This document shows positions 3,155 through 14,944 of a stretch of DNA of 22,387 nucleotides, piece after piece (positions within the stretch are counted from its first letter, which is position 1; each line of letters begins with the position of its first letter). Position numbers and translations under genes: made by a program. Source of the stretch: a virus; the IMG/VR virus record IMGVR_UViG_3300042939_000703, positions 1 through 22,387 of that record. One strand, written 5' to 3'. Below the pieces are notes generated by a model that was not told where the DNA came from, searched no databases, and was given only the letters and a program-made list of their open reading frames with translations.

Positions 3155-4087
3155 ATGGATTTCAAACCGCTCACCGTCCTCGTCACCGGTTCGTCCGGCT
3201 TCATCGGCAACCATGTCGTGCGGCACCTCACCGCAGCAGGCCACAAAGTCATCGGCTACGACTTGATCCCGCCAGAGGACAGATTTCCGGACGGCAGCAT
3301 CTACCTCTGCGGCGACATCAGGACCGCCCGCCTGCCCGACCAAGGAATCGACGCCGTTGTTCATCTCGCAGCTCTGGCTGGTGTTCGCCCCTCGATGGAC
3401 CGGCCTTTCGATTATGATTCAACGAACGTGATCGGCACCCTGCGGCTCCTGGAACATTGCCGAATCCACGGCATCCGCCATTTCGTTTTCGCTTCGTCCT
3501 CCAGCGTCTATGGACCGGACACGCCACTGCCGGCCGAGGAATCGACCACGCCAGATCCGTGCAGCCCATACGCACTGACCAAACTCCACGGCGAGCAATG
3601 GGGCCGACTCTACTCCCGCCTCCACGGTCTGCGCTTTCTCGCACTGCGGTTCTTCTCCGTCTGGGGTCCAGGTCAACGCCCAGATCTCGCACTGGAAGCG
3701 TTCCGTCGCAAGATCGAGGCGGGCCAGCCAGTCGTAATCAATGGTGATGGAAGCCACCGCCGCGACCTCACCCACGTTTCCGATGTAGCCCGGGCGGTCG
3801 AACTTGCTCTCCATTGGCCCGGTCCCGGATCGGCCGTTCTGAACGTCGGCACAGGCAAAAACCACTCCGTCATGGACATGCTGGATGCCGCGACGAAAGC
3901 CGCCGCCGCTTTACAGTTATCGGACTCCAGCTTTACTGATTTTACACCTGCCGTGGTCCATCAAGACGCCCATCCAGCGGACGTGCCGGAAACTCGTGCA
4001 TCCCTTGTGTCAGTAGGGAAAGAACTGGATTGGAACCCACGGATTTTCTTCCCAAACGATACGGCCCCCGACGTGAAAAAAGTGTAA
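3155..4087 (+). CDS. NAD-dependent epimerase/dehydratase (extended SDR)
   Basis: 310 residues, typical size for a nucleotide-sugar epimerase. The Rossmann glycine motif TGSSGFIG is at residues 11-18, the catalytic triad region has a SSSSVYG block near residue 111, and Tyr139 and Lys143 form the YxxxK of extended SDR enzymes (PYALTK). The C-terminal substrate-binding part has ALRFFSVWGPGQRPD, INGDGSHRRDLTHVSDVARA and LNVGTG. It most resembles UDP-glucuronate/UDP-galactose 4-epimerases, acting on NDP-sugars in the cytoplasm. A GTTGAC hexamer sits 14 bases upstream of the start. In a phage it could supply an activated sugar to the glycosyltransferase at 10825-11616, or alter host surface polysaccharide; both are inferences. 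It is an unusual cargo beside replication genes. Confidence 0.93.
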   Translation: MDFKPLTVLVTGSSGFIGNHVVRHLTAAGHKVIGYDLIPPEDRFPDGSIYLCGDIRTARLPDQGIDAVVHLAALAGVRPSMDRPFDYDSTNVIGTLRLLEHCRIHGIRHFVFASSSSVYGPDTPLPAEESTTPDPCSPYALTKLHGEQWGRLYSRLHGLRFLALRFFSVWGPGQRPDLALEAFRRKIEAGQPVVINGDGSHRRDLTHVSDVARAVELALHWPGPGSAVLNVGTGKNHSVMDMLDAATKAAAALQLSDSSFTDFTPAVVHQDAHPADVPETRASLVSVGKELDWNPRIFFPNDTAPDVKKV

Positions 4088-4914: not shown

Positions 4915-5538
4915 TCAGCCCAACCACATCTCCAAATCTGCCATCGCAGCCCTGACGTTTCCTGCTGCCCCGGCCGCAATCATCCGGGTGGTGGCAATAG
5001 GGACAGCCCAGCGCTTCGCGAGGAATGCCGCGAGAACTTCGTTTTCCGGTGGCTGGAGCCGGACCGATTGGAAGCGGGTTTGGAAGCGTTCGGTCAGGCT
5101 GCCGAGGTCGAGATTCGTGGTGCCGAGGAACGCATGGCCTGGCTTCATCCGGTCGAGATACGTGAGAAGCATATCCTGTGCATCCTTCGAGCATCGGTCT
5201 AACTCATTCACGACTTTGACCGACCACGATCCGAAGAGCGCCCCATAGGCGAGTGAGCGTGTCCATTCACGGGCGAGTTCGAGTCCCACTTCCTTGCCGT
5301 TCACGTCCTCGATGGCAACGGGGTGACTGGCGAGCGTGCGAGCGATCATGTTCACCAAACTTGTCTTGCCGATGCCGGGAGCACCGGACACTAACAGCTT
5401 GATTGGTTGGTTGGGGTTCGTCCGCAGGCGCTCGGCCTTTCGCAAAAGCACGTCTGCCACCTTACCCGCCTGCCCCACGAAATCCGCAGGACAGGACGGG
5501 ACGAAGCAGGTGGGCGCAACCGGTGGCTTACGCGGCAT
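4915..5538 (-). CDS. AAA+ ATPase (clamp-loader/RarA-like module)
   Basis: 207 residues from the ATG at 5538; a GTG at 5559 is possible, but the ATG has an AAAGG site just upstream. Walker A GAPGIGKT is at residues 52-59 and sensor 1 LGTTN near 138-142. An RFQTRFQSVRL stretch probably holds the arginine finger and start of the lid, followed by a short helical lid. The Walker B stretch reads VKVVNELDR (109-115), with Asn where Asp is expected; Glu112 is kept. In this family the module hydrolyses ATP to remodel or load DNA proteins. It lacks the C-terminal oligomerisation domain of RarA, whereas a stand-alone RarA-C-like protein is encoded at 10210-10767 on the same strand. It is the last gene of the minus-strand block. 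Confidence 0.83.
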   Translation of the reverse strand: MPRKPPVAPTCFVPSCPADFVGQAGKVADVLLRKAERLRTNPNQPIKLLVSGAPGIGKTSLVNMIARTLASHPVAIEDVNGKEVGLELAREWTRSLAYGALFGSWSVKVVNELDRCSKDAQDMLLTYLDRMKPGHAFLGTTNLDLGSLTERFQTRFQSVRLQPPENEVLAAFLAKRWAVPIATTRMIAAGAAGNVRAAMADLEMWLG

Positions 5539-5698
5539 CACTCGCCACCTTTCCAGCACGGGTGTTGAGGATCAGATCGGCAATGGCCATCGCACCCTTT
5601 CGATAGAGCACCACAGCCAGCAACTCACCATCGACATACACGGCCCAATGGCGGGTGCGGTATCCGTCCGCCTTGTGATAGGGTTTGACCTCGATCAT
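5528..5698 (-). CDS. Small protein of unknown function (56 aa)
   Basis: The start forms an ATGA with the stop of the upstream gene, and the end overlaps the start of the AAA+ gene by 11 bases, so both junctions fit a real operon gene. The sequence has a short strand-rich core: YRTRHWAVYVDGELLAVVLYRKGA, broken here by position (residues 13-36), then a helix MAIADLILNTRAGK. No motif or membrane segment is recognised. It might be a small partner of the neighbouring ATPase, but this rests only on position. Confidence 0.6.
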   Translation of the reverse strand: MIEVKPYHKADGYRTRHWAVYVDGELLAVVLYRKGAMAIADLILNTRAGKVASDAA

Positions 5699-6195
5699 GC
5701 CGCCCAACCCTCCCTTCTGGCACGGGCGTTCAGGTCGCGCAGGTTCAGTCCGTATTTTTCAGCCGTCTTGCGCGGATCCCCGTAGCGGCGGAAGTGGCGT
5801 CTCACGAGGTTCCAGTCCGGCTCCGGTGGCGTGTCGGGCAAGATGGCGAGCGGGTCGAAGCGGGTGGGCCGCTCCGGTTCATTCGGCGTCTGCTCCAGTG
5901 CAGCCAGTCGGCGGAGGATCGGTTTCAGGCGGTCCATCACAAGTGCTTCCACATCGGCGGGCACTGGTGTTTGAATCGGCGCTCCACCGGCAAGCTCGGC
6001 AATCCTGGCGTCCACGATCTCGCGGATCAGGTCCACGGGAATCTCGGTGATGGAATACACGATGCCGCTCAGGCTTTCGAGGCCGAGGAGCTTCTTCATT
6101 TCCCGGCGTGCATCGCGGGGGCTGTCCGCTTGGAGACGGTCATCAAAGACGATCTCGGTGCCACGGCTTGCTATCAGTTTGTAGGTGCGTTTCAT
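5695..6195 (-). CDS. Conserved-looking phage protein with C-terminal HTH-like end
   Basis: 166 residues, coupled to both neighbours by ATGA. The N-terminus is a beta-rich small unit (TYKLIASRGTEIVFDDRLQA) followed by a helical part (DARREMKKLLGLE). Residues 60-110 form a helical, perhaps coiled segment (DVEALVMDRLKPILRRLAALEQ). The last 35 residues, WNLVRRHFRRYGDPRKTAEK and YGLNLRDLNARARREGW, resemble the helix-turn-helix seen in small terminase-like or other DNA-binding phage proteins. The true function is unknown; DNA binding is an inference from that C-terminal pattern. Confidence 0.6.
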   Translation of the reverse strand: MKRTYKLIASRGTEIVFDDRLQADSPRDARREMKKLLGLESLSGIVYSITEIPVDLIREIVDARIAELAGGAPIQTPVPADVEALVMDRLKPILRRLAALEQTPNEPERPTRFDPLAILPDTPPEPDWNLVRRHFRRYGDPRKTAEKYGLNLRDLNARARREGWAA

Positions 6196-6965: not shown

Positions 6966-7613
6966 TCAGGTGTCCGAGTTGCCGCAGGTGTCCGAGAAAT
7001 CGAGAAAGGGTTGGTGGTGGCTATCCGCAGACTGCGTATCTTTGGGCGCAAAAAGTGAGGGGCGCGTGTTCAGTCCATAGGTGAACCCGAGGTTGCTCAC
7101 CTTCATGCCGCGCCACTCGCGCCAGTCGCCGTAGAGTTCGGTGAAGTCGCGGTCAAAGAACACCCACCTGCCCGGAAGCCGGTCGAGCGTGTCCATGCCG
7201 CAGAGATCGACCAAGGACGCGGCAACCCGTGTATCGGACAAAAGCCCATCGGGCATCCGGTGCTTGGGCATCCGCCGCAGGGTTTCGCGCCACTGGCACC
7301 ACGTTCCATTGTGGAAGAGCACGGCGCGGGCATGGCCGGACAGTCGGGTCGTGGCTTTCGCGGAAATGGGGAACGGGTGGCACAGTTTCGGCGTCACCTC
7401 CCCCACGCTCGCCCACCGGAAGTGGATCACGATTTCACCGTCGAGTCCGGCGATCAGCGGTTCGAGTTCCCGTGGTTCGAGTCCCTTGAACCAGCGCACC
7501 ACTCCATCCTCCCGCCATGCCACACCGGCACCGTGGGGGTTCGCTTCGTGGCAGGCAGCGAGGGTTTTTCTATCAGGCCGCACATCGGCGGGGCATACTA
7601 GGATTACACACAT
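6966..7613 (-). CDS. Class II glutamine amidotransferase (Ntn hydrolase)
   Basis: 215 residues beginning Met-Cys: Cys2 is the expected N-terminal nucleophile after Met removal, which fixes the start at 7613. Other GAT-II landmarks follow in order: NPHGAG (25-30), HFRWASVG with Arg66, CHPF (78-81), FHNGTW with Asn102-Gly103 forming the oxyanion hole, and an LSDT segment near residue 126. Such domains release ammonia from glutamine for a partner synthetase. No synthetase domain is fused, so a partner must be separate; the amidoligase gene ends only 13 bases upstream. Known GAT-II enzymes act in purine, asparagine and amino sugar synthesis, but this stand-alone phage form is more likely part of the neighbouring amidoligase pathway. 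Confidence 0.88.
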   Translation of the reverse strand: MCVILVCPADVRPDRKTLAACHEANPHGAGVAWREDGVVRWFKGLEPRELEPLIAGLDGEIVIHFRWASVGEVTPKLCHPFPISAKATTRLSGHARAVLFHNGTWCQWRETLRRMPKHRMPDGLLSDTRVAASLVDLCGMDTLDRLPGRWVFFDRDFTELYGDWREWRGMKVSNLGFTYGLNTRPSLFAPKDTQSADSHHQPFLDFSDTCGNSDT

Positions 7614-7626
7614 GGTTTTCGTTTGG

Positions 7627-8571
7627 TTAGAGATTGGCGTAGGGAAAGCGGGAATCGAAGCGGCGACACATCCGGTCGGCGATCTTCCGGTAGTGCTTGA
7701 ATTCCGAGTGCAGGGGGCCGACCAGACCCAAGGCGACGGGGCGCTTTGATCCGGTCCATCCGAGGTAATCCCAGAGGAAGCGAAGAGCGTCCTTCGCCGT
7801 GGCCGTGCGTTTCGCTTGTGACTTGTTCTTCGAGAAGGCACCGAGGCATTCGACTTCGGCTGCGCGGCGGCAAAGGCCCATCACGGTGGCAAGGTGGTGC
7901 AGCAGCTTGTGGCGATTGAGCGTGCCGGCGAAGACCCGGAATTCGATCACGCCGTGGGTGAAGAGCTTTTTGAAATTGATCATCCCGCGCCCGCACCGGC
8001 TGGCGGCGTCGGCTTTCCTGGCAGGGTTGCTGTTGCGTTCCATCTGGCGGACCAGAGTTCCCACATCCTCGCCGAGCGTGTGGCTGTATCGGTTCAGGTG
8101 GCGTCCGGTTCCCGTTTGGCCATAGAGGCTCATGGCGTGCCACCGTGCGATGTGGGCGAGCTTGCGGCCGTATTCGCTCATGGCTTGCGGGTCGTCCGTG
8201 CCGATGATGGATTTGACGCCCACGGTGATATGGCATCCGCATGAGCCGTTCACGTTCGCCCCGATGGCTTTGGCCCAATCGACGAATTGAAGGAGATGTT
8301 CGATGCCCTCGCCGCCTTGGAGGATGGGTGAAACAAACTCACAGGCCATGCGGCCCGGGTTGGCGCGGATGGAACCGTCACGTTCGGCTTTCCAGTGGGA
8401 ACCATTGTAGGTCGGAGCTACAAGGGGCAGATTGGTTCCTACATGCGCTCCGTTGCGCACCGTGCTGCCACCGTGGTAGGGACCAACGACAACTCCCGAG
8501 GTGGCTGGGATCGTGGTTTCGAGTTCAACTCCGAAGGTGATGGATTCGGCTTTGGGATCTTGCGGTTTCAT
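7627..8571 (-). CDS. Amidoligase (COOH-NH2 ligase, glutamine synthetase-like fold)
   Basis: 314 residues. Key blocks in order: FGVELE (13-18), W60 with DGS (65-67), CEFVSPIL (77-84), SCGCHITVG (110-118) with His114, a GRGMINFKKLF segment near 200, and EFRVFAGTLN near 215. This is the Amidoligase_2 pattern, where the acidic residues and His bind metal-ATP and form an amide or peptide bond between a carboxylate and an amine. A TTG at 8682 would add a 37-residue Cys-rich N-terminus lying in the duplicated intergenic element; the ATG at 8571 is preferred. Together with the glutaminase just downstream, it probably forms a two-gene pathway. Such enzymes have been proposed to modify cell-wall peptides, small metabolites or proteins; substrate here is unknown. 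Confidence 0.85.
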   Translation of the reverse strand: MKPQDPKAESITFGVELETTIPATSGVVVGPYHGGSTVRNGAHVGTNLPLVAPTYNGSHWKAERDGSIRANPGRMACEFVSPILQGGEGIEHLLQFVDWAKAIGANVNGSCGCHITVGVKSIIGTDDPQAMSEYGRKLAHIARWHAMSLYGQTGTGRHLNRYSHTLGEDVGTLVRQMERNSNPARKADAASRCGRGMINFKKLFTHGVIEFRVFAGTLNRHKLLHHLATVMGLCRRAAEVECLGAFSKNKSQAKRTATAKDALRFLWDYLGWTGSKRPVALGLVGPLHSEFKHYRKIADRMCRRFDSRFPYANL

Positions 8572-8753: not shown

Positions 8754-9659
8754 TTACATGTCCCATGCTTCCCGAAAGCCGATGAACTTCGGAAACCGTG
8801 GTGCCTCTTTCGCACCGCTTGGCTGGTGACTGAACTTCACCACGCGGCCAATCAGGGTTTCGCGTTTCATCCAGAGCGTCACCCGGTCGATGCCGCCGAC
8901 GACATGGTTGTATCCCAAGCGGAATTCCACCCCGGTCGAAAGGTGGCGGACAATGAACCCGCCGAGTTCTCCCCGGCCAATCATGCCAGCCTGGGCGAGA
9001 CTGCGTTTCGTGCGTCCGAAGGCATCCTGTTCGGCAGCGTTCTGATTGGTCATGCCCTCGTAAGGTTCAAGCACCACGGCTTCCGCGTCCTCAAAGCGTT
9101 TGATCTTGAGCAGCCACGCTTCGCGTTCGGTGGACCGTCCGCACTTGTAGGGTGAATGCGGCGTGCGGACCATCACGCCCTCGTATCCCTCATCAAGGCA
9201 TTTGGTCTCGAAAGCTTCAAGCTCGGCCAGATTGCGAACCAGCGTCGGCGTCACGAATATCAGATGCCGCGAGCGTGGGTCGGAATCGCTGAACCCAAGC
9301 AGGCCGTCGAGGTCCGCCACGCGCTGGCGGTAGGGTTCGTCCAATCGCCCCTCGAACACATAGTCGAAGATGTGGAAGACGAAGTCCGGCTGGCCGTCAC
9401 GACGACCGATCGCGCTCGTGGTTTCCGAGAACGTGCCGTCGCGCAGCATGAGTTCGCCGTCCACGCCGTCGGGCAGGTTGGCTTCGATCCACTCGCGGGC
9501 AAACCGATTGGAGATCGGCTTGAACGAGCGCGTGAGTGCTTTGCCGCCGAGCTTGAGACAGCGGATGCCGTCGAGCTTGGGCGTGGCGAGCACGGGAAAT
9601 GGGAGCAGGTCGGGGCGCTCACACTTGGAGGCGAGCATTGGCTTGGTAATGGCATTCAT
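8754..9659 (-). CDS. ATP-dependent DNA ligase
   Basis: 301 residues, the size of small phage ligases. The nucleotidyltransferase motifs are complete: motif I KLDGIR with the adenylated Lys28, a DGELM block near residue 65, motif III FHIFDY, motif IV EGVMVRTP, and motif V LLKIKRF. A C-terminal OB-fold region follows with a GELGGFIVRHLSTGVEFRLG segment. It seals nicks by lysine adenylation from ATP, and with the polymerase on the plus strand suggests the phage runs much of its own replication or repair. The ATG at 9659 is chosen because it follows the AAAACC leader shared with other minus-strand genes and leaves a typical N-terminus. Copies of the duplicated element lie on both sides. Confidence 0.96.
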   Translation of the reverse strand: MNAITKPMLASKCERPDLLPFPVLATPKLDGIRCLKLGGKALTRSFKPISNRFAREWIEANLPDGVDGELMLRDGTFSETTSAIGRRDGQPDFVFHIFDYVFEGRLDEPYRQRVADLDGLLGFSDSDPRSRHLIFVTPTLVRNLAELEAFETKCLDEGYEGVMVRTPHSPYKCGRSTEREAWLLKIKRFEDAEAVVLEPYEGMTNQNAAEQDAFGRTKRSLAQAGMIGRGELGGFIVRHLSTGVEFRLGYNHVVGGIDRVTLWMKRETLIGRVVKFSHQPSGAKEAPRFPKFIGFREAWDM

Positions 9660-9682
9660 GGTTTTGAGTGCCGGAAGGATGT

Positions 9683-9767
9683 GCGTTCCGGCATCCTCCT
9701 GCCTGCCAGTCAATCCCGTCATTTGTCGCGCACCATCCGCACCATTTTTCAGAGCGATTTATTGCCG
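9683..9767 (-). repeat. Duplicated intergenic element, copy B (upstream of DNA ligase)
   Basis: Partner of copy A. On the minus strand it encodes, in one open frame, AAINRSEKWCGWCATNDG and WQAGGCRNA, which overlaps the ligase start out of frame. Differences from A include third-position changes that keep the residue (AAC/AAT, TGT/TGC, GCG/GCA). The rest of the 247-base gap 9660-9906 holds only the second shared run at 9879-9896 and no supported gene. Confidence 0.85.
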
Positions 9768-9906
9768 CGTAATCAGCCGTAGGGACACACGACCCCCGCA
9801 CAAGGGATGGCAATATGGTCGGCCCTCACATCCACCATCCGCGTTTGTTAGTCTTCCGTTAGGCGCGGAAATGCACCGTTGGCATGCGGATTGAACGGCC
9901 GCCGCA

Positions 9907-10185
9907 TCAGTATTCTGACGGCAACAAAATTGTCGTCATCGACCTATCGTGCTCGGTAATGATGTAGATCGAACCACCCGGCGTGGCAAAGCGGCTGAGT
10001 AGCCGGGTTCCGTCGTCGAGCGAGTGCTCGTTCGCCTGCTTGTCTTCGGCGCAGAGTTCATCGCCCCAATCGCCGCAGTGGTGACGACGAAGGTATTTCG
10101 ACAGGTCCACGTTCAGCGCAAGCGCGCCGGGAGTGGCGTATATTTTCCCAAGCGGGAAGCGGGGTTGCATCAGGTGTATGCCCAT
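9907..10185 (-). CDS. Conserved plasmid/phage protein of unknown function
   Basis: 92 residues. It has the hallmarks of a widespread small protein often found on plasmids and phages and sometimes mislabelled as a restriction subunit: FPLGKIYATPGAL near the N-terminus, then HHCGDWGDELCAEDKQANEH, a SLDDGTRLLSRFATPGG segment and the nearly invariant ending ITEHDRSMTTILLPSEY. No catalytic motif is evident and I know of no established function for the family. It lies between the RarA-C-like gene and the ligase on the same strand. An internal ATG at 10170 is an alternative start. Confidence 0.8.
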   Translation of the reverse strand: MGIHLMQPRFPLGKIYATPGALALNVDLSKYLRRHHCGDWGDELCAEDKQANEHSLDDGTRLLSRFATPGGSIYIITEHDRSMTTILLPSEY

Positions 10186-10209
10186 AGGGATCTCGGGGTT
10201 GGTGGTTTA

Positions 10210-10767
10210 TCAGGAATCAATCAGGTTGTCGAACAGGCCGGGGATGAATGGATTGAGCGCCTCATGCTCGGCTTTGAAGAACTCAGCCTTGGTCTTGCCC
10301 ATCTTGCGTCCTTGCGGCGTGTGGCAGTCGTAGGCGTAATCGGGGATGGGGATGTATTCGCCCGCCTGTTCGAGTTCATCGGTGAGGGTTTCAGGGTCCA
10401 AGCCCGCCTGCTGGTCATAGACGAAGTTTTGCAGGTGATCGGGATCACGGCTCTTCTTGGCGAGGCAAAGCAGGATCACAGCCTTGGAGACGAAGATGCG
10501 GCCCTTGGGTGTCTTTGCCGGACTGTTGCGGTTGATCTCGGTGTAGCTGTCGTGCAGCGCCTTGACCTCCGCTGTGATAATGCCCCAGCAATCCTCCGCG
10601 CTCACGGTGAGCAGACGCCGCCAGACATACTGGCCAAATCCGCTCGCCCAAAGTTCGAGTGCCCAATATCCGGCCAGCTTTGCGTCACCGCGCCGGATCG
10701 CCTTCTGCATCGCGCTCGACACTCCAGGGAAGGAGTATCCGCGCTTGGTGTGTAGGTGATAACTCAT
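10210..10767 (-). CDS. Stand-alone RarA/MgsA C-terminal-like protein
   Basis: 185 residues. Blocks TKRGYSFPGVSSAMQKAIRR, GYWALELWASGFGQYVWRRL, SAEDCWGI, and FVSKAVILLCLAKKSRDPDH follow the order of the C-terminal tetramerisation region of RarA/MgsA/WRNIP1 proteins, which in full-length form sits behind an AAA+ motor. It ends with a conserved-looking IPDYAYD, GKTKAEFF and PGLFD tail. No Walker motif is present, so it cannot be an ATPase alone. RarA acts at stalled replication forks with clamp-loader-like activity. Here the protein might bind host RarA, or pair with the phage's own AAA+ module at 4915-5538. Both are inferences; the family resemblance is fairly clear. Confidence 0.75.
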   Translation of the reverse strand: MSYHLHTKRGYSFPGVSSAMQKAIRRGDAKLAGYWALELWASGFGQYVWRRLLTVSAEDCWGIITAEVKALHDSYTEINRNSPAKTPKGRIFVSKAVILLCLAKKSRDPDHLQNFVYDQQAGLDPETLTDELEQAGEYIPIPDYAYDCHTPQGRKMGKTKAEFFKAEHEALNPFIPGLFDNLIDS

Positions 10768-10824
10768 CGTCTGCTAGAATGTCAGTTTGGCACACGAGGT
10801 GAAAGCAGTATTGGACGCCATTTA

Positions 10825-11616
10825 TCACAGCTTCACCGATTGCCGACGTGGTGCATCCATCGACACGCGGTCCTGGCTCTTGTAGGTTTCAAGACGGATG
10901 TGAGCCTTCCACTTGCGCTTGAGGTATCGCTTCTCGGTGGCGATGCGTTCCTCACTGCGAAACAGGCTGTTGCCGCCGAGGTTTTTGTCACGCTCCTGGA
11001 CAAAACAGAATCGCGCTTCATTCCATACCAGCCGGTTGTCCATCAACTCTTGCAACGTGGCGTCGATGTCACACTTGCATTTGAGAAGTTCATCCCACTT
11101 CGGCACGCCGCCTTTCTCGTCGCGCACCACGCCCACCGCCCCGCCGACCCAGTGGTTCACACCGAATGGATCGTTGCGTTGCAGAAGCCGTGGATCACTC
11201 CGCTGGTGCCAGCCGAACAATCGTGCCCCGGCCCCACGCGCACACCAGGCCGAATTTTCGAGCATGGCGATGGTTTCGGCGATGGACAGTTTCCGGCACC
11301 GAAGGGACACCATACAGACACACGCGGAAATATCGTCGTCGAGCATGACGATGGCGTCGTCCTTGAAATGCCGCAGCACCCAATTCCGCACGGCACTGAT
11401 GCCGGCGATCTCGTCGGGGATGGTTTCGATTTCCAGCCCGGTGTGCCGGTAATGCTCAGCCTCGCTTGCGGGAACGAGCAGTGTCGCCGTCGGGAATAGC
11501 TTGTGGCTGGTGATCGAGCGGCTTCGGCTCCGGGACAGAATCACCAGACGAAGTTTCAACGGGCGGAATTCCGGCCATGCTGGCGCGGCGGCAGAGTTCA
11601 ATGAGTCGTTTTCCAT
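10825..11616 (-). CDS. TET-associated-type glycosyltransferase (GT-A fold)
   Basis: 263 residues from the ATG at 11616. The N-terminus LRLVILSRSRSRSITSHKLF is the first strand and donor loop, followed by TATLLVPASEAEHY, an IPDEIAGISAVRNWVLRHF block (residues 66-84), and VMLDDDISAC with the DxD-like Asp93-Asp95 metal site. Later blocks include NDPFGVNHWVGGAVGVV and CDIDATLQELMDNRLVWNEA. This order matches the TAGT group that Iyer and Aravind described near DNA-base oxidising and modifying genes in phages. It should transfer a sugar from a nucleotide donor, plausibly to a modified base. No TET/JBP or hydroxymethylating enzyme is visible in the window. Its first 54 codons overlap the ParB-like gene. 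Confidence 0.75.
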   Translation of the reverse strand: MENDSLNSAAAPAWPEFRPLKLRLVILSRSRSRSITSHKLFPTATLLVPASEAEHYRHTGLEIETIPDEIAGISAVRNWVLRHFKDDAIVMLDDDISACVCMVSLRCRKLSIAETIAMLENSAWCARGAGARLFGWHQRSDPRLLQRNDPFGVNHWVGGAVGVVRDEKGGVPKWDELLKCKCDIDATLQELMDNRLVWNEARFCFVQERDKNLGGNSLFRSEERIATEKRYLKRKWKAHIRLETYKSQDRVSMDAPRRQSVKL

Positions 11617-12235
11617 GGAGCACACGGCCAATGCCGATTTTTTTGGTTCTGCGGGTGATCGAGTAGTCAACTTCGGACACTCCCATGAGTTGAAGCACCT
11701 GCATCCAATCCCGCAGGTCGTGGAACATGAACACGAGGTAGTCGTGCGTCTCGAATGCCTGGCATTCCATCCGGGGAATCGTTTCAAGTTCATCCTCGGG
11801 ATTCCCCGCGTCGTCCATCAGCTTGCGAATCTCGTCCTCCATGAAGCCGGTCAGCTCGATGTCGAAGTCGGGATCTGCGTCAGCGATGGATTTGAGCACT
11901 CTCCGCAGATCGTCTTCATCGAGTTCGGCGAGTTCAGACAAACGGTTGTCGGCAAGAAGGTCGGCTAGTTCCTCCGCTTCGCTCGCATAGTCTTGCTCGT
12001 CAACAGGGATCGTCTCGCAGCCGATGAGCAACGCCGCTTCCAACCGGCCATGACCGCGGACGATCAGGCCCGAGCGCTTCGATACGGTGACGGGATTGCG
12101 CCAGCCTTGTTCCTGGATGATCGACGCGAGAAGCTGGATCTGGTGGGCGCTGTGCCGGTTCGGGTTGACCGGGTTCGGTTTCAGCGTGTTCGGATCAACG
12201 AGAGTGGTATGGGCGCAATGCACGGGAATGCTCAT
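11456..12235 (-). CDS. ParB/Srx-domain protein with phage-type C-terminal extension
   Basis: 259 residues. The N-terminal 110 residues are a ParB-type domain: LKPNPVNPNRHSAHQIQLLA, a VRGHGRLEAALLIG block (GHGR near residue 63), then the typical EAEELADLLADNRLSELAEL run. The region 150-215 contains DYLVFMFHDLRDWMQVLQLM and a SITRRTKKIGIGRVLHGKRL end. The last 40 residues are low in complexity and overlap the glycosyltransferase gene by 161 bases. ParB/Srx proteins in phages often sit beside DNA methylases, terminases or base-modification genes, and some are CTPases or nucleases. A GTTGAC hexamer lies 15 bases upstream of this start on the minus strand. It is the first gene of the minus-strand block. 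Confidence 0.85.
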   Translation of the reverse strand: MSIPVHCAHTTLVDPNTLKPNPVNPNRHSAHQIQLLASIIQEQGWRNPVTVSKRSGLIVRGHGRLEAALLIGCETIPVDEQDYASEAEELADLLADNRLSELAELDEDDLRRVLKSIADADPDFDIELTGFMEDEIRKLMDDAGNPEDELETIPRMECQAFETHDYLVFMFHDLRDWMQVLQLMGVSEVDYSITRRTKKIGIGRVLHGKRLIELCRRASMAGIPPVETSSGDSVPEPKPLDHQPQAIPDGDTARSRKRG

Positions 12236-12300
12236 GCCATCGCCCCCGCCGTCAACCTTGACACCACAACCACGATCATCCGTAGTCTGCGGACAGTCTC
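12236..12300. promoter_or_regulatory. Divergent control region between ParB-like and XRE genes
   Basis: A 65-base gap separates two divergent genes. It contains a palindrome GTCAACCTTGAC (12251-12262), a TTGACA hexamer (12258-12263) on the plus strand and a weak TAGTCT (12283-12288) 19 bases on. Either strand could use it as a promoter or the XRE protein as an operator. The evidence is by inspection only. Confidence 0.45.
12280..12292 (+). repeat. 13-base repeat with dyad, copy 1 (before XRE gene)
   Basis: CCGTAGTCTGCGG matches copy 2 at 12512-12524 at 11 of 13 positions and has a CCG/CGG dyad. It ends 8 bases before the XRE start. Candidate operator half of a pair flanking that gene. Confidence 0.5.
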
Positions 12301-12495
12301 ATGGATCACGCAACCTTCGCCCAACTGCTCCGCAAATGGAGGGAACGCAATGGTTACAGCCAGCGCGACGCCGCCGTGGCGTTGAAGGTTTCAAAACGCA
12401 GCCTGGAGAACTGGGAGCAGGAACGAGCGATGCCGCAGGGTTTCGGACTTCAGATGATGCTGGAAATCATCCAGCCCAAGCGGAAACGGAAATGA
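12301..12495 (+). CDS. XRE-family transcription regulator
   Basis: 64 residues. Nearly the whole protein is a Cro/CI-type HTH: FAQLLRKWRERNGYSQRDAA, then VALKVSKRSLENWEQERAMP, and a final short helix with a basic KRKRK tail. It has no dimerisation or protease-cleavable domain, so it resembles small Cro-type regulators more than CI repressors. It is the first gene of the rightward morphogenesis block and stands divergent from the minus-strand block, a good place for a switch or late-gene regulator. The 13-base dyad repeats on either side of the gene may be its operators. Confidence 0.85.
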   Translation: MDHATFAQLLRKWRERNGYSQRDAAVALKVSKRSLENWEQERAMPQGFGLQMMLEIIQPKRKRK

Positions 12496-12511
12496 TGCCC
12501 GGTTGACGCCT

Positions 12512-12524
12512 CCGCAATCTGCGG
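12512..12524 (+). repeat. 13-base repeat with dyad, copy 2 (before small terminase)
   Basis: CCGCAATCTGCGG forms a perfect 5-base stem with a 3-base loop and ends immediately before the ATG at 12525. It could act as an operator or an RNA hairpin that hides the start of the small terminase message. Confidence 0.5.
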
Positions 12525-13124
12525 ATGGAGCCTGTATCACCCGACATCGCCAAAAAACTACTCTCGCGAGACTTCGCCAATCTGGTCGGTCGTGTGCAGA
12601 AGGGCGGCAAGCTGACCCGTGCCGAACGGGCGATGCTGCAAACGCTGGCCACCGGCACCGGTGCCGCCCCCACCAACGCCGCATCCTACGTCGAACTCGC
12701 GGCCATCCTGGGAATCACGCGCCAGTCGCTCAACAACTGGAAGAAACGCAAGGACGCCCCAAAGCCTGCCGCCAACGGCATGCACGACGTGGCCGCGTGG
12801 CGGGAGTTCATGCGTCGCAATGATCTCAAGGGCAGCGAGGTTGCCGAACCAGGTGACATCGAATCGTCACTCAAGGCCCGCAAGTTGTTAGCTGAGGTCG
12901 AAGAACGGGAACTGCGGCTCGGCATCCGGCGCGGCGACTACGTGGCCGTCGAGGAAGTCCGGCAGGCATGGACCGAGTTCGTGGCGCAGGCAACGTCGAT
13001 GCTCCGCAAAAAGTTCGAGCAGGAATTGCCGCCAATTCTATCGGGTCTCGATGCCACCGGCATTCAGGAGGAAGCGCGTCGTGCCATCGACGAGGTGTTG
13101 ACGATCCTCCATCAGGGCGAATGA
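12525..13124 (+). CDS. Terminase small subunit, Nu1-like
   Basis: 199 residues. A winged HTH at about residues 55-80, YVELAAILGITRQSLNNWKK, matches the DNA-binding region of lambda Nu1-type small terminases. A long helical middle follows (SLKARKLLAEVEERELRLGI), with RRGDYVAVEEVRQAWTEFVA towards the C-terminus, as in Nu1 relatives. It recognises the packaging start site and recruits the large subunit. The next gene is the large terminase and begins in an ATGA overlap, which confirms the assignment. A GTTGAC hexamer is 17 bases upstream of the start. Confidence 0.9.
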   Translation: MEPVSPDIAKKLLSRDFANLVGRVQKGGKLTRAERAMLQTLATGTGAAPTNAASYVELAAILGITRQSLNNWKKRKDAPKPAANGMHDVAAWREFMRRNDLKGSEVAEPGDIESSLKARKLLAEVEERELRLGIRRGDYVAVEEVRQAWTEFVAQATSMLRKKFEQELPPILSGLDATGIQEEARRAIDEVLTILHQGE

Positions 13125-14944
13125 AGACCATCGAACCCGCCCGCAGGAAACTCGAACGCATCTGGCGCAATGCCTGGCGTCCGCCGGATCGTCGTCCCCC
13201 GTGGGCATGGTGCGAGGAACACATCACCTCGATCCCATACTCCCCCATTCCCGGTCGGTTCCGTTCGGCCAACTCGCCATGGATGCGTGAGCCGATGGAA
13301 GCCTTGGTCGATCCGAAGATCCGCATCGTGAGCATCATCGCCGCAATTCAGAGCGGCAAAACCAGCGTTGGCGAACTTGGACTCGCCCACATCATCGCCA
13401 ACCATCCAGGCCCGACATTGTGGCTCGACCAGACCGACGATGACGCGAAGGACCAAAGCGAAAGCCGCCTCCAGAAACTCTTCGACGAATGCAAACCGGT
13501 CAGCGCCCTCTATCCGGCCAACCGTCACAAGAAGCGCATCGCCACGGTTCATTTCGCCAATGGCATGACACTCTGGGTGCTGGGAGCGCACAACAAAACC
13601 AACCTCCAGCGGCGTTCGATTCGCTGGCTCATCGGTGACGAAACCTGGCGGTGGCCCATCGGCCATATGGCGGAAGCCGAAGCTCGTGTCACCGCGTTCG
13701 GTTGGCTCGGCAAGTGCCTGTTCATGTCACAAGGCGGAGAGGACGACGACGACACACACCGCAAATACGAAACCACCGACATGCGCGAGTGGACGTTTGA
13801 GTGTCCGCACTGTCACCAGCGCCAGCCGTTCAAGTGGGAGCAAGTCGAGTGGAGCAAGGACGCCCGCGACGAATCCGGCGAGTGGGATTTCCAGAAGGTC
13901 CGCGACACCACCTCGATGCGTTGCGCGTCCTGCAATCACTACTTCGAGGACAGCGACCGCACCCGCCGCGAACTCAATCTCAGCGGCAAGTATGTCGTCA
14001 TGAATCCGAACGCGCCGAAGGAAAACGCCGGATTCCACTGGAACGCCATGTGCGCGATGAGCTGGGGCCGTCTGGCCGAACTCTATCTCCGCGCAAAGGC
14101 CGCCGCCCGCAAAGGCGACGTGAGTTTGATCCAGCAGTTCTATCAAAAACGTCTCGCCCTCGCATGGCGCGAGTATCTGGAAGACTACAAACTCGACATC
14201 GTCCCGGGCGGCTATCTGAAAGGCGAAACTTGGGACGGCGAGGCGGGCGTGGATGCCCAGGGGCGATTGGTTCCGGCTGGCGAACCGTGCGCGTGTCCAC
14301 TCCGCATCCTCACAGTCGATTGCCAGATGGATCACTTGTTTCTCGTTGTCCGCGCATGGGCGGAGGACGGATCAAGTCGCCTGATTTGGAACGAGCGGAT
14401 CCTGACATTCACCGACGTGGAAACCGTGCAGGAGCGTTTCGGTATTCATCCAAACCTCGTCTTTGTCGATGCCGGCCACGCCACCTATGACGTGTATCGC
14501 GAATGCGCGGCACACGGATGGACGGCCCTCATGGGTGACAAGCGAGCGACGTTCACCCACAAGGTCAAAGGCCGGAAATCGGTAGAGCGGTTCTATTCGC
14601 CGCGCAGGAAAGTTGTTCTCGGCCGGGGGCAATCATGCTCCGTGTTCTATTGGTCCAACCTCAACATCAAGGACACGCTCGCCCGCCTGCGTCGGAATCA
14701 AAATCCGGACGACGGCCCGGTGTGGGAAGTGCCCGATGACATCGACGATGACTATCTCGCCCAGATGGAAAGCGAGCACCGGATCAAGAAGAACGGCAAG
14801 TGGTTGTATGAGAGGATCGGTTCCCGACCTAACCACTACTACGACTGCGAGGCGGAACAGGTCGCCGCCGCCACCATGCTCAAGATCGTGGGCCGTGAAG
14901 CGGTGACATCAGCGCCAGTTGACACCTCGGACGAGGAACCATGA
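13121..14944 (+). CDS. Terminase large subunit, GpA family
   Basis: 607 residues from the ATGA-coupled ATG; the open frame extends upstream but overlaps the small terminase. The ATPase half has Walker A QSGKTS (77-82, Lys80) and Walker B LIGDE (Asp173-Glu174). A Cys4 zinc knuckle follows: C228, C231, C268, C271. The C-terminal nuclease half has acidic strands VDCQMDH (Asp400) and FVDAGH (Asp450), the RNase H-like metal site that cuts concatemers. The length and layout match lambda gpA. The gene ends in another ATGA with the lipoprotein gene, and a GTTGAC is 18 bases upstream of its start and another near its end. Confidence 0.96.
   Translation: MKTIEPARRKLERIWRNAWRPPDRRPPWAWCEEHITSIPYSPIPGRFRSANSPWMREPMEALVDPKIRIVSIIAAIQSGKTSVGELGLAHIIANHPGPTLWLDQTDDDAKDQSESRLQKLFDECKPVSALYPANRHKKRIATVHFANGMTLWVLGAHNKTNLQRRSIRWLIGDETWRWPIGHMAEAEARVTAFGWLGKCLFMSQGGEDDDDTHRKYETTDMREWTFECPHCHQRQPFKWEQVEWSKDARDESGEWDFQKVRDTTSMRCASCNHYFEDSDRTRRELNLSGKYVVMNPNAPKENAGFHWNAMCAMSWGRLAELYLRAKAAARKGDVSLIQQFYQKRLALAWREYLEDYKLDIVPGGYLKGETWDGEAGVDAQGRLVPAGEPCACPLRILTVDCQMDHLFLVVRAWAEDGSSRLIWNERILTFTDVETVQERFGIHPNLVFVDAGHATYDVYRECAAHGWTALMGDKRATFTHKVKGRKSVERFYSPRRKVVLGRGQSCSVFYWSNLNIKDTLARLRRNQNPDDGPVWEVPDDIDDDYLAQMESEHRIKKNGKWLYERIGSRPNHYYDCEAEQVAAATMLKIVGREAVTSAPVDTSDEEP

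Follow-up and report, generated by a model that had tools for sequence, protein, structure and literature searches.

An amidoligase-glutaminase gene pair linked to a ParB-like protein and a TAGT-family glycosyltransferase in phages of Verrucomicrobiota: a candidate amide step in DNA hypermodification

Phage operons that combine an amidoligase, a class II glutamine amidotransferase (GAT-II) and a gamma-glutamylcyclotransferase (GGCT) were reportedly recognized in 2009 by Iyer, Abhiman, Burroughs and Aravind; the UFV-P2/LUZ24 group, OM43 phages and Arthrobacter phage Waltz are said to carry them. We know of no product assigned to a phage amidoligase/GATase pair. Pairs of this kind have already been published (PMC3890496, PMC10580990), and such gene sets have been interpreted as serving metabolite production, nitrogen metabolism or the cell wall (PMC10580990, PMC10945688). 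The locus analyzed here resembles the 2009 operons in having a PF12224 amidoligase adjacent to or near a class II GATase, but it has no GGCT or ATP-grasp gene; a ParB-like protein, a TAGT-family glycosyltransferase and a stand-alone MgsA_C protein are its constant partners instead.

Two groups of DNA-modifying systems are also relevant. The amide ligase CmoY, known since 2025, works on phage DNA and is a neighbour of ParB; some of its relatives bear a glutaminase domain (PMC12783734). The CmoA-CmoX-CmoY system and the present locus share ATP-dependent amide formation, known or proposed, on DNA, ParB neighbours, and ligase variants that bear or accompany a glutaminase. However, CmoY is an AsnB-type, AMP-forming ligase, whereas the present locus encodes a GS-fold ligase and a separate GAT, and no CmoA was found in the contigs of its clade that were searched. 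The second group comprises operons with TET dioxygenases, TAGT glycosyltransferases, kinases and the amino acid:DNA transferase ADDT (PF18724). The locus shares TAGT and ParB with these operons, and among relatives some TET phages carry the amidoligase-GAT pair next to TAGT or to a kinase of PF18751. It differs in that no TET, kinase or ADDT was found in its own clade, and the pair would represent an added amide step. In the literature searched, which lay outside Iyer et al. 2009 and 2013, no paper was found that joins a PF12224 amidoligase, a GATase, TAGT and ParB.

The amidoligase and glutaminase genes

The stretch of DNA analyzed (hereafter the window) is a viral record of 22,387 nucleotides and is itself a fragment of a genome. 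An Rfam search of the window gave no match. Its relevant genes are the following.

3155..4087, plus strand: NAD-dependent sugar-nucleotide epimerase that most resembles MoeE5/UDP-glucuronate 4-epimerases and may supply the donor sugar
4915..5538, minus strand: AAA+ ATPase, a conserved neighbour further downstream within this block of minus-strand genes
5695..6195, minus strand: conserved protein downstream of GAT, no family assigned
6966..7613, minus strand: stand-alone class II glutamine amidotransferase (glutaminase; GAT), 215 aa, N-terminal nucleophile Cys2
7627..8571, minus strand: GS-fold amidoligase (AmL), PF12224, 314 aa
8754..9722, minus strand: ATP-dependent DNA ligase, a frequent but not constant neighbour
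10210..10767, minus strand: stand-alone MgsA/RarA C-terminal-domain protein (MgsA_C), a constant cassette member in the window clade
10825..11559, minus strand: TAGT-family glycosyltransferase (GT), PF20691, with a VMLDDDI motif; start codon uncertain
11456..12235, minus strand: ParB-like protein; proteins of this type occur as fusions with phage DNA methyltransferases or as their neighbours

The AmL gene, read from 8571 to 7627, encodes the motifs FGVELE (residues 13-18), DGS (65-67), CEFVSP (77-82) and CGCHI (111-115), and its product matches Pfam Amidoligase_2 (PF12224) at 41 bits against a curated cut-off of 22. After a gap of 13 bases (7614-7626) it is followed by GAT (7613 to 6966), the product of which starts MCVILV, carries Cys2, Arg66 and His101-Asn102-Gly103, and matches Pfam GATase_6 at 29.6 bits (cut-off 27). 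A preliminary description, made from the letters alone, had named this GS-fold amidoligase and this stand-alone GAT-II with the same motifs, residues and spacing. The coordinates, the residues and the folds all agree with it, and the Pfam search places neither protein in an unrelated family.

Alignments of 18 diverse homologues, which reach down to ~30% identity for both proteins, identify G14, E16, E18, D65, S67, C77, E78, S81, P82, G112 and H114 of AmL as invariant; E210 and R212 are likewise invariant. Among these residues, E16, E18, E78, H114, E210 and R212 are likely to serve the metal and ATP sites. The invariant residues of GAT are C2, R66, H101, N102, G103, S126 and D127. PDB sequence searches with AmL, GAT or their alignments gave no useful match, so predicted structures were needed for fold assignment; an NCBIfam search returned no family for either protein. 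Among solved folds, the AmL model (pLDDT 93.8) is nearest to GS, gamma-GCS, YbdK and the depupylase Dop, at Z 11-13. For the GAT model (pLDDT 88.1) the best matches are glutaminase domains, those of GlmS, GFAT and PPAT (probability 1.00). ATP-dependent amide formation by AmL is predicted from its family and fold.

Genomes from IMG/VR and GTDB were scanned for relatives, giving several hundred loci. GAT is the next gene in 94 of 96 distinct close amidoligases (those scoring >300 bits against the clade profile) with room downstream, and the adjacency is no accident; most of the loci are homologous, so this and the other counts of pair and cassette linkage given below are not counts of independent events. 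The two exceptions (L328, L329) are bacterial MAG contigs in which the amidoligase match is itself partial. The gap between the two genes is 12-107 bases in nearly all loci. In contrast, 23 of the 30 amidoligases that scored below 150 bits are without GAT, and the pairing is thus a feature of the window clade and not of PF12224 as a whole. Among distant amidoligases of phages and bacteria, many have no GAT and no modification genes within reach. No natural fusion of AmL and GAT was found among the loci scanned. The correlation between AmL and GAT distances (r 0.89) shows co-inheritance only.

The hosts of this group are Verrucomicrobiota: the nearest relatives in genomes occur in Akkermansiaceae, Prosthecobacter, Chthoniobacterales (Chthoniobacter) and others. 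In the cultured Chthoniobacter flavus Ellin428 (L321/L051) a related prophage has an interrupted AmL frame, with GAT, GT, ParB and MgsA_C all detected. Three bacterial MAG contigs (L325, L335, L336) carry a truncated amidoligase with the downstream AAA gene within ~100 bases, the 3' part of AmL and GAT having been lost together. Amidoligases without GAT are present in Planctomycetes, both cultured and MAG (L347-L356), with two copies in some genomes and, in most, a ParB-like gene ~5-6 kb away on the opposite strand; this Planctomycetes locus is probably a mobile element.

The cassette and its variants

The pair belongs to a cassette of same-strand genes in the order ParB, TAGT-family GT, MgsA_C, AmL, GAT. 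The window GT matches PF20691 at 33.2 bits (cut-off 27.5) with partial coverage, over profile positions 4-96 of 205, and it also matches phrog_842. The PF20691/TAGT family includes the T6-type glucosyltransferase that acts on hydroxymethylcytosine DNA, and TAGT glycosylates the DNA of T-even phages (PMC13390438). ParB lies beside GT in all of the 80 best GT loci. AmL is found in 43 of these 80, and every locus without it ends within ~4.4 kb of GT; where more than ~4.4 kb of downstream sequence is available, AmL is always present in these best loci. Likewise, each of the 80 best MgsA_C loci has both ParB and GT. ParB, GT, AmL and GAT are kept while gene order and phage background vary. The window TerL has only 21-29% matches, or none, in four contigs with the cassette (L040, L071, L086, L111), so that phages sharing the cassette can have packaging genes of little or no relationship.

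The DNA ligase, glycosyltransferase and ParB-like neighbours mentioned in the preliminary description are all real. As context for the pair the ligase is not constant, however; it is absent from many loci and was rejected as an essential part of the cassette.

The most compact arrangement is seen in L111 (G028), where ParB, GT, a sulfotransferase, MgsA_C, an APS kinase, AmL and GAT form one block. In L132 (14036-19239), also of G028, a sulfotransferase (PF13469) and an APS kinase are inserted among GT, MgsA_C and AmL. These G028 insertions suggest sulfation as a further decoration.

Several features of the surrounding genes may be recorded here. The likely 5' end of the window GT overlaps the 3' end of ParB by ~100 bases (11456-11559) in a different frame, an overlap that is slight or absent in the G012 and G015 relatives. 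The small AAA+ ATPase (4915-5538) and MgsA_C (10210-10767) are separate genes in the window and adjacent in L128, as if they were a split RarA. Relatives encode a family A DNA polymerase of ~1,470 aa (L118/L119; G001, 36301-40710), of which the window holds only the C-terminal end; in L118/L119 the ~660 residues before the exonuclease domain are without a Pfam match in the stretch scanned.

The MgsA_C protein has a profile match to RarA structures. It is constant in the TAGT phages of the window group that have no TET, and it was found in none of 10 TET-bearing contigs. In G031, MgsA_C occurs together with a C5-methylase; G036 is without MgsA_C and without every known handle enzyme, that is, the enzymes that would prepare a base for further modification. 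The protein may be only a replication protein (a split RarA) or may be part of the modification; that it takes part in making the base handle is speculative.

Links to DNA hypermodification and the nature of the sugar

Several relatives place the pair among genes for base modification. A TET/JBP dioxygenase is present in three AmL-GAT contigs of a first set of 30 and in three of a second set, and ParB stands immediately before TET wherever these contigs were inspected. In these TET phages the gene directly upstream of AmL encodes TAGT in L283 (PF20691, 38 bits) and, with a weak match, in L140 (21.9 bits); in L137, L141 and L344, the last from a betaproteobacterial MAG, it encodes a PF18751 P-loop kinase (base-modification kinase). 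The GTs of the window and of the TET phages are homologous by profile comparison (probability 98.7%). The linkage of TET with AmL comes from one phage lineage. A separate TET lineage, L444, has an operon (9352-13211) adjoining the terminase and running ParB, TET, class II GATase, GNAT, ADDT and a PF18751-like kinase, in which no amidoligase was detected.

TAGT was found in 12 of 20 amidoligase contigs tested and in 1 of 14 controls, the controls being cellular genomes and not phages; G033 has four TAGT copies. A C5-methylase lies ~6 kb from the AmL-GAT pair in G031. In one phage contig, G019 (L138/L139), a thymidylate-synthase-family gene directly precedes one of three amidoligases; two class II GATases are also present there. 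G032 has an amidoligase locus without GAT, containing three ParB-like proteins, GGCT, a CmoA-like gene and a divergent C5-methylase. In G032 (L289:1027-2628 and L279:9809-10498) the C5-methylase-like protein reads SPSY, its catalytic cysteine missing, at the position where the carboxymethyltransferase CmoX is published to have SPPC. The C5-methylase of L278 was considered as a CmoX and rejected, having an ordinary GFPCQ motif and no CmoA.

Enzymes that could supply a base handle were sought with PF00145, PF12851, PF00303, PF01555 and CmoA. In window-clade contigs of 39-79 kb no TET, TS/hydroxymethylase, CmoA or N6/N4 methylase was found, and the only trace of a C5-methylase (PF00145) was a 28-position fragment in G004. 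In the TAGT-rich G031 and G033 the same enzymes were not found, bar a C5-methylase; in G033, with its four TAGTs, the C5-methylase, TET, TS family, CmoA and N6/N4 methylases are all absent. No base-hydroxylating enzyme having been found in the window clade, the acceptor of the GT is left unexplained.

The window epimerase provides a clue to the sugar. Its closest solved relative is MoeE5 (5e-48), the UDP-glucuronate 4-epimerase of the moenomycin pathway. In moenomycin, too, a galacturonate sugar goes together with an amidation, there carried out by a different enzyme. The likeness to the present locus thus lies in the epimerase and in the proposed logic of uronate amidation; the difference is that moenomycin belongs to a natural-product pathway and that its amidating enzyme is not homologous to AmL-GAT. 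In the Bacillus cereus enzyme Arg185 binds the galacturonate carboxylate (PMC12338863). The window epimerase keeps the equivalent arginine within a GxxQRPD motif, and this residue (R175) is invariant in six homologues. Near the cassette in G015 is another epimerase, distantly related (33% identity), that also has this arginine. However, the best NCBIfam match is to GalE, at 141.8 bits below the 262.3 cut-off; the UDP-GlcNAcA epimerase TviC scores 86 bits, far below its cut-off, and no other uronate 4-epimerase model matched. The epimerase gene also lies on the strand opposite the cassette, and some relatives (G010, G014) do not have it. For these reasons the uronate route is put forward as a hypothesis.

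Proposed function and alternatives

We favour, with moderate confidence, the view that AmL and GAT form a two-subunit glutamine-dependent amidase for phage DNA hypermodification. Since GS-fold ligases work through an acyl phosphate and class II glutaminases provide ammonia, a carboxamide is the expected product of the pair. The N-terminal cysteine of GAT would release ammonia from glutamine, to be channelled within a complex of the two proteins to AmL, which with ATP would convert a carboxylate to an acyl phosphate and then to the carboxamide. The most likely site of that carboxylate would be a hypermodified base in the DNA of the phage itself, put in place by the cassette, with the TAGT glycosyltransferase attaching a sugar and ParB bringing the enzymes to the DNA. 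In the most specific version the sugar would be a uronic acid, the epimerase converting UDP-glucuronate to UDP-galacturonate. Given the MoeE5-like epimerase and its carboxylate-binding arginine, the simplest pathway would be transfer of galacturonate from UDP-galacturonate to DNA by TAGT, followed by amidation by AmL and GAT. The product is perhaps a uronamide sugar on DNA, which would hide the phage DNA from nucleases with no added charge. Taken as a whole, the detailed scheme of an amidated uronic-acid sugar on phage DNA (for example galacturonamide on a pyrimidine), made by the epimerase, TAGT and the split AmL/GAT on a base handle from an unrecognised enzyme, is rather doubtful.

The preliminary description had left the product of the pair entirely open among a small molecule, peptidoglycan, protein and DNA; the adjacent two-gene phage module it described stands, but the neighbourhoods in other phages favour DNA. 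Auxiliary metabolic roles have been proposed in the literature (PMC10945688, PMC10580990), Arthrobacter phage Waltz has the same two families with GGCT, and the L143 and L148 phages have GAT with GGCT. The pair could accordingly make a small amide or gamma-glutamyl metabolite, or serve the nitrogen metabolism of the host. We consider this unlikely, since no GGCT, ATP-grasp or other metabolic partner is seen in the window and what constantly accompanies the pair is ParB, a glycosyltransferase of the DNA type and MgsA_C. The earlier remark that the window lacks GGCT was borne out, no GGCT profile matching anywhere in this 22.4-kb fragment, and GGCT is not needed by the window clade.

A target at the host surface, with the pair and the GT building or amidating a uronic-acid sugar of O-antigen, capsule or peptidoglycan and so blocking superinfection, is quite improbable. 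Amidated uronic acids do occur in bacterial surface glycans. A UDP-glucuronate-type epimerase and a GT are found here in one phage, a sulfotransferase and an APS kinase lie inside the G028 relative of the cassette, and a cell-wall role in superinfection has been proposed (PMC10580990). However, the GT falls in TAGT, a family known to act on phage DNA; flippases, acyltransferases and membrane GTs were not seen; and ParB is always adjacent, with TET and base-kinase linkage in relatives. The least probable of the three alternatives retains DNA as the target but has AmL join an amino acid or an amine, the GAT-fold protein being an amidohydrolase or transferase and not an ammonia source. CmoY ligates glycine to 5-carboxymethylcytosine (PMC12783734), and some amidoligases near modification genes, such as that of G032, have no GAT; yet nearly all members of the window clade have GAT, with its full set of glutaminase residues.

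The window clade gives phage amidoligase/GATase pairs a specific role that can be tested, namely amide formation on phage DNA that carries sugars. To our knowledge, the GS fold is not known to act on DNA. If amidation of DNA by AmL and GAT is correct, it would point to a base-hydroxylating enzyme yet to be found, and ATP- and glutamine-dependent carboxamide chemistry would join the repertoire of DNA modifications by which phages escape restriction and CRISPR.
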